Assembly: GCA_009780035.1 (NCBI GenBank)
Contig: WRAU01000002.1
Span: forward strand, 124,001-188,000
Length of the DNA: 64,000 nt
Origin: Alphaproteobacteria bacterium
GTDB lineage: Bacteria; Pseudomonadota; Alphaproteobacteria; WRAU01; Hepatincolaceae
Reading direction: 5' to 3'
In this document: in pieces, positions 47,168 through 55,337 of the stretch
How the letters are laid out: every line of letters begins with the position of its first letter
How positions within the stretch are numbered: the stretch's first letter is position 1
Notes under the pieces: model-generated
What the model was told of the DNA's origin: nothing
What the model saw: the letters and a program-made list of their open reading frames with translations, nothing else
The model's database searches: none
Translations under genes and position numbers: made by a program

Positions 47168-47254
47168 TAAAAAAAGCTAGAATAATCTAGCTTTTTAATG
47201 TTATGATATATTATCTTGTTACGAGATTCTGAAACCTAATTTTTAATATGCTAC
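47168..47254 (-). ncRNA. tracrRNA of the type II-C system
   Basis: In the 373-bp gap between thiL and the array, the minus strand at about 47254..47231 matches 24 consecutive bases of the array's plus-strand repeat (starting TAGCATATTAAAAATT). An RNA made from it is therefore complementary to the crRNA repeat. The repeat's 5' part (GTTCGAGTT) pairs further after a two-base tracrRNA-side bulge, to CTCGTAAC. Downstream are a small hairpin (GATA-ATA-TATC) and a strong terminator ending in seven U. Promoter hexamers fit a start near 47252, so the RNA is about 85-90 nt. The rest of the gap (47040-47165 and 47290-47404) is AT-rich without recognised signals. Confidence 0.88.
47171..47196. terminator. 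tracrRNA terminator
   Basis: Perfect 11-bp stem AAAAAGCTAGA / TCTAGCTTTTT with a 4-base loop, followed by seven U on the minus strand. It marks the 3' end of the tracrRNA and could also end plus-strand transcripts. Confidence 0.85.
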
Positions 47255-47258
47255 TTAT

Positions 47259-47287
47259 ATAATAAATATTATTTTTTAGTTTGTCAA
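47259..47287 (-). promoter_or_regulatory. tracrRNA promoter
   Basis: Perfect -35 TTGACA (47287..47282), 17 bp, then TATTAT (47264..47259) on the minus strand. The predicted start falls at the beginning of the anti-repeat, so the tracrRNA has almost no 5' leader. Confidence 0.75.
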
Positions 47288-47404
47288 AATTTTAATATAT
47301 TTTATAAACAAATAAAATTAGAAGATTCTTTTATTAAAAACATGCATTTTTTATTTGCTAAAAACATTCCAACTTCAATAAAATTAACCCCTTCACTTGT
47401 TTAT

Positions 47405-49816
47405 ATTATAGCATATTAAAAATTAGGTTTCAACTCGAACCAGCTGCCTGTTTTAATTGTTCCTTGCGCTATTATAGCATATTAAAAATTAGGTTTCAAC
47501 TCGAACGGTTCAGTCCTGCTTTTGCCATATCGTTGAATTATAGCATATTAAAAATTAGGTTTCAACTCGAACTTCGTCCTCCTCTTAGTCCTATTACTTT
47601 ATATTATAGCATATTAAAAATTAGGTTTCAACTCGAACCCATATACTGCGCTGGGGAATACGACGATGATTATAGCATATTAAAAATTAGGTTTCAACTC
47701 GAACATTTGGAATATCGTTTAATCTAAATCCATTATTATAGCATATTAAAAATTAGGTTTCAACTCGAACATGGAATGTATCTCCCTCGTATTACTTTTA
47801 ATTATAGCATATTAAAAATTAGGTTTCAACTCGAACATCTCAAAGGCGGCTCTAAATCTTCATCATATTATAGCATATTAAAAATTAGGTTTCAACTCGA
47901 ACTGAGGATGATGTTCATAAAGATTTTGGACTATTATAGCATATTAAAAATTAGGTTTCAACTCGAACAGGCGGAACGAAAACTGTTATAGATTTTCAAT
48001 TATAGCATATTAAAAATTAGGTTTCAACTCGAACTATCCCTGGAAGCGGTAGAAGGTCCTTATCATTATAGCATATTAAAAATTAGGTTTCAACTCGAAC
48101 AAGAAATGAGGTCGCGGAAACTAATCAGGGATTATAGCATATTAAAAATTAGGTTTCAACTCGAACTATGTTTAATGTTTATGTATGTTTTTAATTATTA
48201 TAGCATATTAAAAATTAGGTTTCAACTCGAACGTTGCCTCCTTGAGCTCCACCTCCTTGTTGATTATAGCATATTAAAAATTAGGTTTCAACTCGAACTT
48301 GTTGTAAGTTAATGTGGCAAACATCGCTATTATAGCATATTAAAAATTAGGTTTCAACTCGAACCATACTCCGCCTGGTTTATCTTCTGCGCTGATTATA
48401 GCATATTAAAAATTAGGTTTCAACTCGAACGCAGCAATAGCCAATACTTTCTGGTGTAACATTATAGCATATTAAAAATTAGGTTTCAACTCGAACTGCT
48501 CCACATTTTATTTAGACCTTGCTGATATTATAGCATATTAAAAATTAGGTTTCAACTCGAACCCATGTTGTTTTATCCTTTTCAATTAATTCATTATAGC
48601 ATATTAAAAATTAGGTTTCAACTCGAACAGAGGAGCACAAACGACAAAAGCAACTTAAATTATAGCATATTAAAAATTAGGTTTCAACTCGAACCACTAA
48701 CGCTTATTTATCTATAGATGAAAAATTATAGCATATTAAAAATTAGGTTTCAACTCGAACCCAGATTACCTTGGTTGTTCTCGTCGTGGTATTATAGCAT
48801 ATTAAAAATTAGGTTTCAACTCGAACTTATGCGAAGGAGGTATATAAAGCCAATCAATTATAGCATATTAAAAATTAGGTTTCAACTCGAACAGTAGAGC
48901 TATTATGATTAAGGCTCTTAATATTATAGCATATTAAAAATTAGGTTTCAACTCGAACGATACATGATGATTTAAGGGCTGATATTCAATTATAGCATAT
49001 TAAAAATTAGGTTTCAACTCGAACAAACTCTCTTGACTTGCACTACTTAAAAAAATTATAGCATATTAAAAATTAGGTTTCAACTCGAACTGAATGAATG
49101 CTTATCTTCTAACATAGGAAAATTATAGCATATTAAAAATTAGGTTTCAACTCGAACTGCTGAGGCTAAAGAAAGAGCAAAGCACGAATTATAGCATATT
49201 AAAAATTAGGTTTCAACTCGAACTGGATTACCTGTAGCCATGTTTGGATTATTATTATAGCATATTAAAAATTAGGTTTCAACTCGAACTACTTAGTGGT
49301 TGCTTTTAATAGTGGCGATATTATAGCATATTAAAAATTAGGTTTCAACTCGAACGGTCTAGGCTATTAAATGGCTGATTTTCAATTATAGCATATTAAA
49401 AATTAGGTTTCAACTCGAACTTAACTCCCGGTGTAGAAACATAAAATTTAATTATAGCATATTAAAAATTAGGTTTCAACTCGAACGCCTCAACAGGTGG
49501 CTTAACCCATATATTTATTATAGCATATTAAAAATTAGGTTTCAACTCGAACAATGATCTTGTACCATCACCACCTGATGTAATTATAGCATATTAAAAA
49601 TTAGGTTTCAACTCGAACTAGTTTATCTTTACTACTAACAAGGTTATTATTATAGCATATTAAAAATTAGGTTTCAACTCGAACTTAAGAGATTTAGATA
49701 AAAAGAATATTTCTATTATAGCATATTAAAAATTAGGTTTCAACTCGAACAAAAGCTACTTCGGTAGAGTTTTCTTCCGGATTATAGCATATTAAAAATT
49801 AGGTTTCAACTCGAAC
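47405..49816 (-). CRISPR. type II-C CRISPR array, 37 repeats and 36 spacers
   Basis: Repeats are 36 bp and, read by eye, all identical; first 47405..47440, last 49781..49816. Spacers are 30 bp except one of 31 (49091..49121) and one of 29 (49356..49384). On the crRNA (minus) strand the repeat begins GTTCGAGTTGAAACC and ends ATATGCTATAAT. That end matches the form of Neisseria-type II-C repeats (GTTG...ACAAT). No repeat at either end is degenerate, so integration polarity cannot be read. The array begins 40 bp beyond cas2 and ends about 150 bp before the tracrRNA. All spacers are different; several read as protein-coding phage-like sequence. Confidence 0.99.
49781..49809 (-). promoter_or_regulatory. 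crRNA promoter inside the repeat (first of 37 copies)
   Basis: Within the repeat, minus strand: -35 TTGAAA (repeat bases 8-13; here 49809..49804), 17 bp, then TATAAT (repeat bases 31-36; here 49786..49781) with TGC just before it, an extended -10. It is present at the same place in every repeat because all are identical. The start would fall about base 7 of the following spacer, leaving a guide of about 24 nt. Confidence 0.7.
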
Positions 49817-49856: not shown

Positions 49857-50189
49857 TTAGAATAACATAAGTTGAGTCTCACTACCCTTAGTTTTTTTCT
49901 TTCGTCCTGTGAAACTTTTAATACTCTCATATTGTTTATCGGTAATACAAAATACATTAACATCACCATTTTCTGGCAAAGCATTTTGCACCACTTTTTC
50001 CATCCGCTGGGCGGTTTCTTTAGAAGCTGCCAACTTAATATACACAGAATATTGTAACTGTTTAAATCCCATATCTAACAGTGTATTACGAAATTCCCTA
50101 TACTTTTTTCGCTGCACTTTTTCTTCCGTTGGAAGATCAAACATTACAAACATCCACATAACCTGATACCCGCTTAATACTGTTTTCAT
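49857..50189 (-). CDS. cas2: CRISPR-associated protein Cas2
   Basis: 110-residue ferredoxin-fold partner of Cas1 in spacer acquisition. Core: MWMFVMFDLPTEEKVQRKKY (the conserved Asp in FDLP), FRNTLLDMGFKQLQYSVYIK, and ENGDVNVFCITDKQYESIKS. ATG 50189 overlaps the cas1 stop (ATGA). It ends 41 bp before the array. No cas4 or csn2 follows, which fixes the subtype as II-C. Confidence 0.96.
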   Translation of the reverse strand: MKTVLSGYQVMWMFVMFDLPTEEKVQRKKYREFRNTLLDMGFKQLQYSVYIKLAASKETAQRMEKVVQNALPENGDVNVFCITDKQYESIKSFTGRKKKTKGSETQLMLF

Positions 50190-51088
50190 AGTTTTAAATT
50201 AGCCAATTGAATATTTGGGCTTCCTTCTTTAAAGCAAGATACTAAATTTTGAGATATATAGTTAAAAACCCTAAAAATTGGTATATTTTGCTTTTTATAT
50301 ACCGTATCTAAAATTAAAATATCTGCTAATTCTTTTTTAATTTGCGGTGTTAAAATCCTATCTTCTTCATTTAGCACCATAGCTTTCACGGTATAATCCA
50401 CCAATGGACGATACGGCTCCATTAAATCATCAGCCAAGCAAAAATGATTGTAGGCATTTTTGTGAAATAACCCTAAAGATAAATTGAGCCCTGCCGCACA
50501 AAGCGACCGACAAACCGCACTCCGCAGCACCGTATAGCCATAATTCAGCATAACATTGGTAAGATCTGTAGATTGCTTGTCTCTTGTGAAATCTTTACCG
50601 AACATTTTATTAAAATAATATCTGGCAGCTTGGGCTTCAAGCCCTGTGCTATCGCCCGACTGAACATCATTTGCCATATTTTCTAAATACTTAGATTCAG
50701 TTTCATTAGTAGAATAATGCTGCAAAACATAGGCTTGGTTTTTAATTTTCTCTTGGATAATTTTTTGCCATAATCTTTTCTTTAAGGGCAGCGAGGCATT
50801 TATTTGGTTATCTAGCACTAATTTACTTTGATAATGACTGCTAAGCGGCAGCGAAATAGAAATCGGCAGATAATTACCACCGCAAATAATAAGCGGTATA
50901 TTGTGTTCTGCAAGCCGAACCATAATATTTTTAGATAAAGTGGAATCATTAGATGAAATAACCACCCCAGCGATTTCATCAAAGCTAACCCTGCCCATCT
51001 CAACGGAATTTTCTTCAATTAAAAGAAATCCCCGATAAAGACTAAGATAAGTGTTATCTTTATTAACCTCTATTATTTTTTGTATCAT
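50186..51088 (-). CDS. cas1: CRISPR-associated integrase Cas1
   Basis: 300-residue metal-dependent integrase that inserts new spacers with Cas2. Active-site residues are visible: Glu in STGLEAQAARYYF, His in GLFHKNAYNHFCLADDL and Asp/Glu in LMEPYRPLVDY. It begins 9 bp after cas9 (TAGGGC, ATG 51088) and overlaps cas2. Its stop is TGA, one of only two found among intact genes here. All residues needed for acquisition are intact, so the array can probably still grow. Confidence 0.97.
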   Translation of the reverse strand: MIQKIIEVNKDNTYLSLYRGFLLIEENSVEMGRVSFDEIAGVVISSNDSTLSKNIMVRLAEHNIPLIICGGNYLPISISLPLSSHYQSKLVLDNQINASLPLKKRLWQKIIQEKIKNQAYVLQHYSTNETESKYLENMANDVQSGDSTGLEAQAARYYFNKMFGKDFTRDKQSTDLTNVMLNYGYTVLRSAVCRSLCAAGLNLSLGLFHKNAYNHFCLADDLMEPYRPLVDYTVKAMVLNEEDRILTPQIKKELADILILDTVYKKQNIPIFRVFNYISQNLVSCFKEGSPNIQLANLKL

Positions 51089-51097
51089 TTTAATGCC

Positions 51098-54000
51098 CTA
51101 CTCACTGTTATTATTTTCCTCTGTTGATTCTTTGCTATTCTCTTGAGGATTATTATTTTCTTGAGATTTTTTATCTTTTTTAGCTTCTTTTTTCTTATCT
51201 TCCAGCCATGTTTTATACTCTTTAGGAAGGCTTTCCATTTGAATACCACGAATTTCACCATTTGGTAAAACAGCTACTTTTTTGAGATTGAAGAAGCTAT
51301 CATGTTCTTTAGGTTCTTTCCGTAAAACTGTGCTAATATTATAAGGTTGTTGTTTATTATCACTTAATAATAAAGGTCTTAAATCTAACCGACCACCTAA
51401 CCTTTGAAGTCCTTTAACAACAAACAAAAATTGAATATCTTTTTCACTATCAATTTTTCCATCTTCTTTTTTATAAGCAACTACGGTATCTTCTTTATGT
51501 AATCGCATTAAAAATTTTGGATTTTTATCTTTAGTTAATATTTCTTTAAAATTTTCACTATTTTTATAAGATTCAGCTCCCCTATTGCCCTTATGCTCAG
51601 CAAAATCTGCATATAAAATAAAATTACCTTGATAAGCAAAATTTTCTTGATTTGTTTTTCTATCAACCCCTTTGCTGATTTGATAAATATCCACACATTT
51701 ATAAGAATCAACAACATAGGCTTTATAAGGACTATCAGTTCCTTTAACATCTTTCGTGAATTGTGAATAAGTATCCTTACGCTTTTGCTTTTGATTTATC
51801 GGTTTAACGGTAGCATAGTATTTCAACGAAACCTTTTTAATGCCTCGATGTTCACCAAAAGTTTTTAATAAATTGCTTAATTCTTTGGCTTCCTTGCCCT
51901 TAGGCTCTTTAATCTCTTTTTTCAAGTTCCACATGTCAGTTTGAAAAACAGATAAACCATTTTCTGCCAAATATTTACGAATATCCATTCGCAAACTATC
52001 TTCTTCAGCATTATAAGGCTCTTCAGGGTTAGCTTTATAGTTTAAGCAAATTACACTAGATATATCTCCTAAAGATAACCCATCAATAGCTTTTCTTTCT
52101 TTTATTAAATATTGCCCCTCTTTATTTCTAATTACCTCTCCCTTGCTATCAAGCACAATACCATAAGCCGTATCTTTATAAAGTGCCGACTGTGTTTTAT
52201 GATTAACCTTAACACTTGGTATTATACTATTTAGAGATTCTTTCACTTTATTATAAAAATCTCCATATTTAATAAGGTCATTAGAAACACTATATTTTAA
52301 AATATCGCCCATTGCCGATTTTCGTTCTTTTAAATAAGCCTCACCAACAATTTTTTGCTCTTTAAACTTCTGCATTCTATTTTCTAATTCACCGCTAACC
52401 TTTTGCACAAGCCCTCTATTTATTAAAGCCACTGTGATAGCATCTAAACTATGGTGGCGATGATCGTCTCTATTCTTTTTATTTTCCTCATTTACATTTA
52501 ATATTTCATTCAAACCTAAATAATGACGGTAAGAACTGGTAATTTTTCCCTGCATACATACCACATTATGGTTATTTTCTACTAATGCTGATAAATACTG
52601 TTTTGCAACCTTAGTAATGTATCTTGTATCGTTCAGCTGATTGTTAGAAAAATTTTCCCGCAGTTTTTCGGCAATTTCATTGCCTGATGGCGTAAAACGA
52701 AGATATTTAGGATTCTTTTTACCATAAATTTTCTCGGCTCTTTTCACTAAATCATCATAATTATAATCCTTATGATTACTAAAAGCCTCATAAGGAGTTT
52801 TATTTTCTTTAATTTGATTACACTGACGGCAAACTAATACTAAGTTGGTAAAACTATCATCACCGGTTTGCGAAATTGGCAGAATATGGTCAACCTCAAC
52901 ATCTGTTGTATATCCTATGCTATCTCCACAATAAATACATTGTGCCTTTTCAACTTTTTGATTATCCTTAGGACTTTTTCTTAAATCATAACCTTGTTGT
53001 TCATACCATAATTTTAGTTTTCTATTTTCATCTCTACTAGCCTTATGACCTAATTCTTTATCTATGAATTCATTCCAATTTTTATTTATAAGATTTTTAT
53101 CATCTATTTCTTTTTTAGTTGCTGGCGAATTAATAATGTCCCGAGCCATTTCTAAATGAATATCGTCAAATTTAAAACCTTCGCCAAATTTTTTCTGCAT
53201 TTCCGCAATAATAGAATTAACCACAACCCTAATTTGATTCAACGCAATATGAACGGTGGGGTTATTAATTTTGCCGGTAGTTAGTTCTTTATGTGCTTGC
53301 GAACCATGTTTGGCGATGGCTTTTTTAGTTAAAGTTTGGTTGCCTCTTTTAATTTCTAAAGAAAGTTCAACATTACCATCAGATTTCAAAACAGGATCGC
53401 CATAAATTTCACCGGTTAAAGAATTCTTTAATACTTCCAAATCCCCATAGTATGGCAATTCATATTTTACAGTTGGCAACACTCCTTTTTCTTCTGCATG
53501 GCTATAGCTTGGATAAACCTGTTCTATTATTTTATCTATAGTGCCATTTGTATTTTCCCAAGCATCTATTAATTTTAACAAGGCTTTATTGCTATAGTTG
53601 GCATAGCCTTTTTCTTTAGTCAATTCGGTAAAAATTGTTTTAGGAGTTTTAGTTGTGCCTTTTTCTATAAATAAATTATCTAGTTCTCCTAGATTTTGCC
53701 ATTTTGTATAAAAATCTTCTTTTTTATTTTCATTAATATCTAAAAACTCTAAATCTAAAATATCTTTAACTAATTTATCCTGACTTTCTAAGGTAAGATT
53801 AGACCACTTATCACCCAAGCAAGAATTCATAACCGCAAAAGTATTATTGCTTTTCATTAAAACATTATCATCTTTGACTTTCCAGTTAGTTTTTAAGATT
53901 TTGTCTTTATATTCTTTACCTAAAGAATCTTGCAATTTCTTTAAAGTTAAATTTTCTTGATTAATAATGTTTAATAAATCTTCTTTTTGTTTTTGATTGA

Positions 54001-55189
54001 GGTTTTTATAGCTAGGTTTGTCAGATTCACTATCCACAAAATCATATTGCAGGTTATTTAAAAACTGCAAACTGCGGAATTTTTGAAAAATCGGGCTAGT
54101 TTTAGGAGCTACCTTCTCATCTTCCTCAAGAACGCAATTCTCTATTAAATGCTCTTTAGACTGCAGCGGATATTGCTTAAAAATAATATCATGTATTCTA
54201 TTCCATTGATTTACAGAAATTGGCAAACTGGCTTTTTGCGATAATTCTTTAATTCTTTCAAATTCATCCTCATACATCTCTCTACTTGCAAAATACTCAC
54301 CCTCTGGAGTAAACCGCACGGCTTTTTGGGCGGTAAAGTTAGTTTCTTTAATTTTTTCATTTTCTAAATATTGTTTATATAAAAACTGCCCTAAGGTTAA
54401 ATTTCCATCTTTTAAGATTTTTGCTAAATGCGGAATTCCCTTTTTAATGCGGCTTAATTCATCATTTAAACCTTTAGCATTCTTTATTTCACGAAAAATA
54501 TTAATTTTTTTAGTATCTTTCTTAAATTTTATCTCTTTTTCAAATTCAAAACCCTCTAATTGCCATTTATTAAAAAATTCTTGTTTTTTATTGGTATCAT
54601 TTTTATAAGTTTCAAGGGATAAAATATCTGCTACAAATTTTTCTTTTTCTTCTTCAGTAAGATTATTAAATTTATTATCCTCACCTAAAAATTCTTCCAT
54701 TACCTTTAAAATGTTTTTATATTCTTCAGCTTTAATCTTTGCTAAATCTGGCTTAATTATAGAATTATCATAATAACCTCTATGCTTATTAAGGTGAAGA
54801 ATCGCCCGCAGAACTTTATTTAATTCCGGATTGTTTGAAACTGCATTAGCTCTGGCTTCATAAGCATTTAGCGTATAAACATGAGTGTCTAAATTTTCTT
54901 GAGAAATAATATTTTCTTTAAGCAGATAGCTATTTAAAAGTTTAACCCGATTGATTTTTCTTTGCTTCTGCTTGCGCTGAGCTTTAATAGTTGAACGAGA
55001 TGCCGCTAAACTTACTTTAGAATCCGGTTCTCTGCCATCGCTAAAAAGCCTAACACCAGACTTTACTATTTCAAGCGGAACATCTACGGTATTTTGTTGG
55101 GATTCAGTAATAACCTCGCCCTCAAAAGAAACAACCGCCCAGCCAATGCTATTAGTGCCAATATCTAAACCTAACTTATACTTTTTCAT
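51098..55189 (-). CDS. cas9: RNA-guided endonuclease Cas9 (type II-C operon, long form)
   Basis: Dual-RNA-guided DNA nuclease. I use ATG 55189 (1363 residues, behind AAGG), not the TTG just before it. RuvC-I: KLGLDIGTNSIGWAVV (Asp9). Arg-rich bridge helix about 60-89. Helical recognition lobe about 90-650. RuvC-II: HLEMARD (Glu680). HNH: EVDHILPISQ (Asp767, His768) and Asn791, framed by CIYC (751-754) and CRQC (787-790), which could bind zinc. RuvC-III: DDHRHHSLDAITVA (His913, Asp916). PAM-interacting region about 1050-1320, then a Lys/Glu/Asn-rich tail. All catalytic residues are present. It is longer than most II-C Cas9 (about 1000-1150) and nearer the Bacteroidetes long forms. Confidence 0.97.
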   Translation of the reverse strand: MKKYKLGLDIGTNSIGWAVVSFEGEVITESQQNTVDVPLEIVKSGVRLFSDGREPDSKVSLAASRSTIKAQRKQKQRKINRVKLLNSYLLKENIISQENLDTHVYTLNAYEARANAVSNNPELNKVLRAILHLNKHRGYYDNSIIKPDLAKIKAEEYKNILKVMEEFLGEDNKFNNLTEEEKEKFVADILSLETYKNDTNKKQEFFNKWQLEGFEFEKEIKFKKDTKKINIFREIKNAKGLNDELSRIKKGIPHLAKILKDGNLTLGQFLYKQYLENEKIKETNFTAQKAVRFTPEGEYFASREMYEDEFERIKELSQKASLPISVNQWNRIHDIIFKQYPLQSKEHLIENCVLEEDEKVAPKTSPIFQKFRSLQFLNNLQYDFVDSESDKPSYKNLNQKQKEDLLNIINQENLTLKKLQDSLGKEYKDKILKTNWKVKDDNVLMKSNNTFAVMNSCLGDKWSNLTLESQDKLVKDILDLEFLDINENKKEDFYTKWQNLGELDNLFIEKGTTKTPKTIFTELTKEKGYANYSNKALLKLIDAWENTNGTIDKIIEQVYPSYSHAEEKGVLPTVKYELPYYGDLEVLKNSLTGEIYGDPVLKSDGNVELSLEIKRGNQTLTKKAIAKHGSQAHKELTTGKINNPTVHIALNQIRVVVNSIIAEMQKKFGEGFKFDDIHLEMARDIINSPATKKEIDDKNLINKNWNEFIDKELGHKASRDENRKLKLWYEQQGYDLRKSPKDNQKVEKAQCIYCGDSIGYTTDVEVDHILPISQTGDDSFTNLVLVCRQCNQIKENKTPYEAFSNHKDYNYDDLVKRAEKIYGKKNPKYLRFTPSGNEIAEKLRENFSNNQLNDTRYITKVAKQYLSALVENNHNVVCMQGKITSSYRHYLGLNEILNVNEENKKNRDDHRHHSLDAITVALINRGLVQKVSGELENRMQKFKEQKIVGEAYLKERKSAMGDILKYSVSNDLIKYGDFYNKVKESLNSIIPSVKVNHKTQSALYKDTAYGIVLDSKGEVIRNKEGQYLIKERKAIDGLSLGDISSVICLNYKANPEEPYNAEEDSLRMDIRKYLAENGLSVFQTDMWNLKKEIKEPKGKEAKELSNLLKTFGEHRGIKKVSLKYYATVKPINQKQKRKDTYSQFTKDVKGTDSPYKAYVVDSYKCVDIYQISKGVDRKTNQENFAYQGNFILYADFAEHKGNRGAESYKNSENFKEILTKDKNPKFLMRLHKEDTVVAYKKEDGKIDSEKDIQFLFVVKGLQRLGGRLDLRPLLLSDNKQQPYNISTVLRKEPKEHDSFFNLKKVAVLPNGEIRGIQMESLPKEYKTWLEDKKKEAKKDKKSQENNNPQENSKESTEENNNSE

Positions 55190-55337
55190 CAAACCACCTT
55201 ATATTTACAATTTTTTACATTACTAAAAAAATACATCATACAGCACAAAATTGCAATACAATTATAAGATGCAATTAGTTAATAAAGTGTTAATATAGCA
55301 AGCTATCGAATCTGTATAACTTAAATAATTTATATCT

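Follow-up and report, generated by a model that had tools for sequence, protein, structure and literature searches.

A type II-C CRISPR locus with a predicted sigma-70 promoter in every repeat and an array-leader-tracrRNA block apparently inverted relative to the cas operon

The window analyzed here, a 64-kb stretch from an alphaproteobacterium whose genome is small (1.42 Mb) and AT-rich, contains a CRISPR-Cas locus lying entirely on the minus strand. Its cas operon consists only of cas9 (51098..55192, 1,364 aa), type II cas1 (50186..51088), and cas2 (49857..50189), and no csn2 or cas4 was present among the operon open reading frames. The neighboring array (47405..49816) comprises 37 exact copies of the 36-bp repeat GTTCGAGTTGAAACCTAATTTTTAATATGCTATAAT, read from 49816 to 47405, and 36 spacers, of which 34 are 30 nt long, one is 29 nt, and one is 31 nt. 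Beyond the last repeat lie a putative adaptation leader (47288..47404, minus strand) with the motif GAAGGGGTTAATTTT and a predicted tracrRNA (47171..47253, minus strand), for which a promoter scan returned TTGACA-17-TATTAT at 47259..47287 on the same strand. The tracrRNA consists of an anti-repeat (47253-47218) followed by a terminator hairpin (47196-47171); an Rfam search did not find it. In co-folding, the anti-repeat pairs with repeat positions 1-32, leaving a bulge close to the guide end, as expected of a dual-RNA type II system; since pairing ends at position 32, the last four repeat bases, TAAT, stay free. Because only on the minus strand does the tracrRNA promoter precede the anti-repeat and the terminator follow it, the assignment of the crRNA to this strand is supported independently of any promoter motif in the repeat. 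Judged by its cas9-cas1-cas2 content and a tracrRNA with its own predicted promoter and terminator, the locus is type II-C, and the 36-nt repeat begins with GTT and ends in TAnnnT, as II-C repeats do.

A scan of named genomes with the window Cas9 returned no matches, so Cas1 was used to find relatives; in a Cas1 tree built without II-A and II-B references, the window sequence falls among cas9-cas1-cas2 loci with II-C-type repeats. The solved structures closest to the window Cas9 are Cas9 chains of ~1,080 aa, a size we take to be that of Neisseria-type II-C enzymes, and the best of them spans residues 639-936. At 1,364 aa the window protein is large for type II-C, in which Cas9 measures 1,077 ± 49 aa (PMC4607530); the Cas9 of the sister genus described below has ~1,215 aa.

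II-C arrays are generally antisense and convergent to their cas genes (PMC4607530), whereas the window array is codirectional with them and so departs from this usual but non-defining arrangement. We called the crRNA strand in 95 related loci, a few of which are one record fetched twice, from the repeat termini (GTT or GC at the start, T at the end) rather than from RNA, and array and cas genes were convergent in 94; the other, a Verrucomicrobia II-C array (L119, 11480-11845), is ambiguous in that repeat orientation and leader position disagree. Among the 76 relatives that could be scored, the leader profile was higher at the crRNA-3′ end, beside cas2, in 73, which fits published descriptions of II-C transcription as running toward the end at which the array grows (PMC8092290, PMC12638026). 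When this profile was applied to the window, the crRNA-3′ flank, here distal to the cas genes, scored in the top 2.7% of all window 45-mers, and the opposite flank lay at the 70th percentile. We therefore place the putative leader at the cas-distal flank with moderate confidence.

The closest comparison comes from a sister genus represented by MAG RE-23may17-523 (L040 and L201), whose Cas1 is 55% identical to that of the window and groups with it at 100% support. Its repeat, GTTGGAGTTTGAAACTTTTTTTAGATATGCTATAAT, retains TTGAAA-16-TGCTATAAT while the remainder has diverged, and the 24-nt core of this repeat had been predicted from the anti-repeat before the array was found. As in the window, its tracrRNA has a TTGACA/TATTAT promoter (TTGACA-18-TATTAT), but there the tracrRNA adjoins cas2 and points toward it. 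The array reaches a contig end on its crRNA-3′ side and is not joined to the cas genes, which lie at another contig end; from the tracrRNA placement we infer that the two are probably convergent. The order array-leader-tracrRNA would then be shared by both genera, so that one inversion of the block would convert either layout into the other, and we infer that in the window this one-strand block was inverted relative to the cas operon by such an event. That the codirectional layout stems from misassembly, or is just an ordinary variant at this locus, is improbable though not negligible: the host assembly is a draft of 17 contigs, the sister orientation was deduced across a contig break, and Rhodopseudomonas rhenobacensis (L114, 13017-13777) has a second array with an identical repeat adjoining the first in the opposite direction. 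Against this, the window is interior to a 188-kb contig, no inverted matches of at least 10 bp that might cause misassembly were found at the block borders, and both the leader-like motif and the tracrRNA accompany the array as one block.

Within each repeat, TTGAAA occupies positions 8-13 and TATAAT positions 31-36, separated by 17 bp and with TGC directly before TATAAT; in the first, 5′-most repeat (49781..49816, minus strand), these hexamers fall at 49809-49804 and 49786-49781, and the layout is common to all 37. The initial annotation had described this arrangement as a sigma-70 promoter in every repeat, and all of its sequence details hold. A promoter scan gave all 37 repeats 11/12 with a TG extended −10, although they amount to one event because repeats are copied. 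Among 400,000 shuffled 36-mers, an 11/12 promoter at a spacing of 16-18 arose in 315, and one that also had the extended −10 TG arose in 19. A similar signal is found in relatives, a check that the initial annotation had proposed: among 86 distinct repeats, the window's own included, 78 end in TAnnnT, 16 end in TATAAT, and the extended-position TG occurs in 41. Matches to TATAAT averaged 4.28, compared with 1.55 ± 0.11 in shuffles, and the best −35 match was 3.50, compared with 2.42 ± 0.10, differences whose significance the shuffles overstate because the compared repeats share descent. The repeat of one locus (L056) contains a perfect TTGACA-16-TGCTATAAT.

The host encodes a typical RpoD; the regions of the protein that read the −10 and −35 elements appear standard by comparison with Escherichia coli, and the genome includes a gene for RNase III. 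Outside the array, ~56 TTGNNA-17-TATAAT sites were counted in the genome, compared with 31 in a reversed-pattern control. Near-alike perfect promoters, each TTGACA-17-TATAAT around a TTTATACATTTA-like spacer, also occur at G000:C6:43926-43954, C1:164445-164473, and C4:952-980, a small family that apparently precedes different genes. The idea that consensus promoters elsewhere in the genome serve tRNA genes was rejected, as they had no tie to such genes. The 300 nt upstream of the array contain no good promoter, the best promoter-like sites reaching only 9/12.

We consider it very probable from these patterns that there is one promoter per repeat. Transcription from TTGAAA-17-TGCTATAAT would start each crRNA ~5 to 8 nt into the next spacer, leaving ~24 nt of guide, in line with the start and guide length first predicted for this array; no clear purine preference was seen at spacer position 7 (purines in 21 of 36). 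The following repeat would then pair with tracrRNA, and the paired repeat would be cut, with RNase III the most likely nuclease. The leader, at the array 3′ end, would serve as an adaptation signal and not as a promoter. To the full reading, a II-C locus with a sigma-70 promoter ending each repeat, a leader acting in adaptation, and a block inverted relative to the cas genes, we assign a probability of roughly 0.86.

The cas genes of the window, unlike those of its relatives, lead into the array; the cas2 stop and the first repeat are only 40 bp apart, with no convincing terminator found on the minus strand between them. Read-through from cas9-cas1-cas2 is thus possible alongside the lack of any upstream promoter better than 9/12, and the array might be expressed mainly as one long precursor with the repeat promoters playing a minor part. 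We think this improbable, since it leaves unexplained a near-consensus extended promoter that both the sister genus and decayed repeats (see below) have retained, and the two modes of transcription are compatible with each other. Recognition by Cas1-Cas2 might account for part of the conservation at the repeat end, but it is very unlikely that such recognition or tracrRNA pairing is what maintains it, with the sigma-70 match incidental to an AT-rich repeat: the repeat end does abut the leader, where new spacers enter, and window repeat G+C is only 25%, but TAnnnT holds in G+C-rich repeats too, the last four bases lie outside the tracrRNA pairing in the window, the two ends of the repeat are not inverted copies of each other, these bases are missing from type II-A repeats (PMC4607530), and starts have been mapped to spacers in Campylobacter jejuni (PMC3656092).

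Further comparative evidence for promoters comes from the first repeat at the crRNA-5′ end, whose 5′ half is part of no crRNA and which is often decayed in relatives. Of 30 such decayed copies, 29 have kept the complete −10 hexamer, and the last 9 nt of the 30 hold 2 of the 193 mismatches, compared with ~48 expected if mismatches were uniformly distributed. Similarly, the first repeat of the sister genus has changed at 16 of its 23 leading bases and at none of the final 13 (GATATGCTATAAT). Selection for the first spacer's promoter, if these sequences act as promoters, explains the surviving −10. Alternatively, the 3′ half could be kept by a neutral process in which recombination refreshes the terminal repeat on its inner side.

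Neisseria meningitidis and N. lactamica produce 24-nt guides from 30-nt spacers. Zhang et al. in 2013 reportedly attributed a promoter in each repeat to N. meningitidis. The best-documented precedent is C. jejuni, in which differential RNA sequencing found TEX-enriched starts at spacer position five, one promoter per repeat, and a 3′ cut of the crRNA by RNase III (Dugar et al. 2013, PMC3656092). Like the window, C. jejuni combines a promoter in each 36-nt repeat, an extended −10 at the repeat 3′ end, and a start within the spacer (PMC3656092, PMC4607530) with a tracrRNA downstream of the array. It differs in its repeat end (GGTAAAAT), in the size of its Cas9 (984 aa versus 1,364 aa), and in that the sigma-70 promoters of Campylobacter have no clear −35 box, whereas the window repeat has TTGAAA. 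N. meningitidis and N. lactamica likewise have a 36-nt repeat with an extended −10 (TGCTACAAT), but their −10 is TACAAT rather than TATAAT and their arrays are convergent with cas in the II-C scheme (PMC4607530) rather than codirectional. The −10 (gnTAnaaT) has been described as a mark of II-C repeats (Pearson et al. 2015, PMC4607530), and the identical extended −10, TGCTATAAT, ends the otherwise different repeats of Haemophilus parainfluenzae and Clostridium perfringens (Table 1, PMC4607530), a likeness that concerns the −10 and involves no comparison of the −35. C. cellulolyticum has also been described with a promoter per repeat (PMC7038990), and the II-C arrays of Flavobacterium columnare and F. 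psychrophilum have a different promoter type with a TTG motif (PMC8092290, PMC10309648). Given the precedents in C. jejuni, Neisseria, H. parainfluenzae, C. perfringens, and C. cellulolyticum, the window array is a further case of a known II-C trait, and the novelty implied by the initial annotation does not stand: C. jejuni had established the principle, N. meningitidis reportedly shares it, and TGCTATAAT had already been published (PMC4607530). What is distinctive here is the apparently flipped array-leader-tracrRNA block, which that annotation missed along with the tracrRNA itself, and the large Cas9.

Two spacers match the host's own genome. Spacer 11 (49091-49121) is a perfect self-targeting spacer, with 31 of 31 nt found at L202 3596-3626 within a putative thymidine phosphorylase gene (deoA), where the 3′ flank on the crRNA-like strand is TATCGGTAA. 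Spacer 8 (49290-49319) matches at 29 of 30 nt around 3937-3966 of L203, in a region that looks like a prophage by our reading of its amidase, neck, and tail-like genes. Searches of the spacers against a phage collection, two scans of viral contigs with exact 24-26-mers, and a scan with prophage proteins each returned zero matches. Since the spacers had no viral matches and the 3′ flanks of the two self-matches are unlike each other, no PAM could be derived.

The promoter of the last repeat (47405..47440, minus strand), which has no spacer after it, is directed into the leader and tracrRNA, and could give rise to a long form of the tracrRNA. The interval from the last spacer to the tracrRNA showed no terminator on the minus strand, so a transcript predicted from the promoter of repeat 36 comprises spacer 36, repeat 37, the leader, and the tracrRNA. 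In this read-through RNA the repeat pairs in cis with the anti-repeat, at a predicted folding energy of −76.8 kcal/mol, compared with −41.1 ± 4.0 in shuffles (z = −8.8), part of which is simply repeat/anti-repeat complementarity. One speculative reading, which we regard as rather doubtful, is that array, leader, and tracrRNA form an autonomous cassette, whose flip would have been cost-free because each crRNA has its own promoter, and that the last-spacer transcript (spacer 36, repeat, leader loop, anti-repeat, and tracr tail) folds as a natural single-guide RNA. Should such a read-through guide exist, the newest spacer would have a tracrRNA built into its own transcript. More broadly, the locus would add a new lineage to the evidence that II-C arrays need no leader promoter, along with two comparative arguments, namely, that decayed first repeats keep their −10 and that the array block has stayed intact after an apparent flip.
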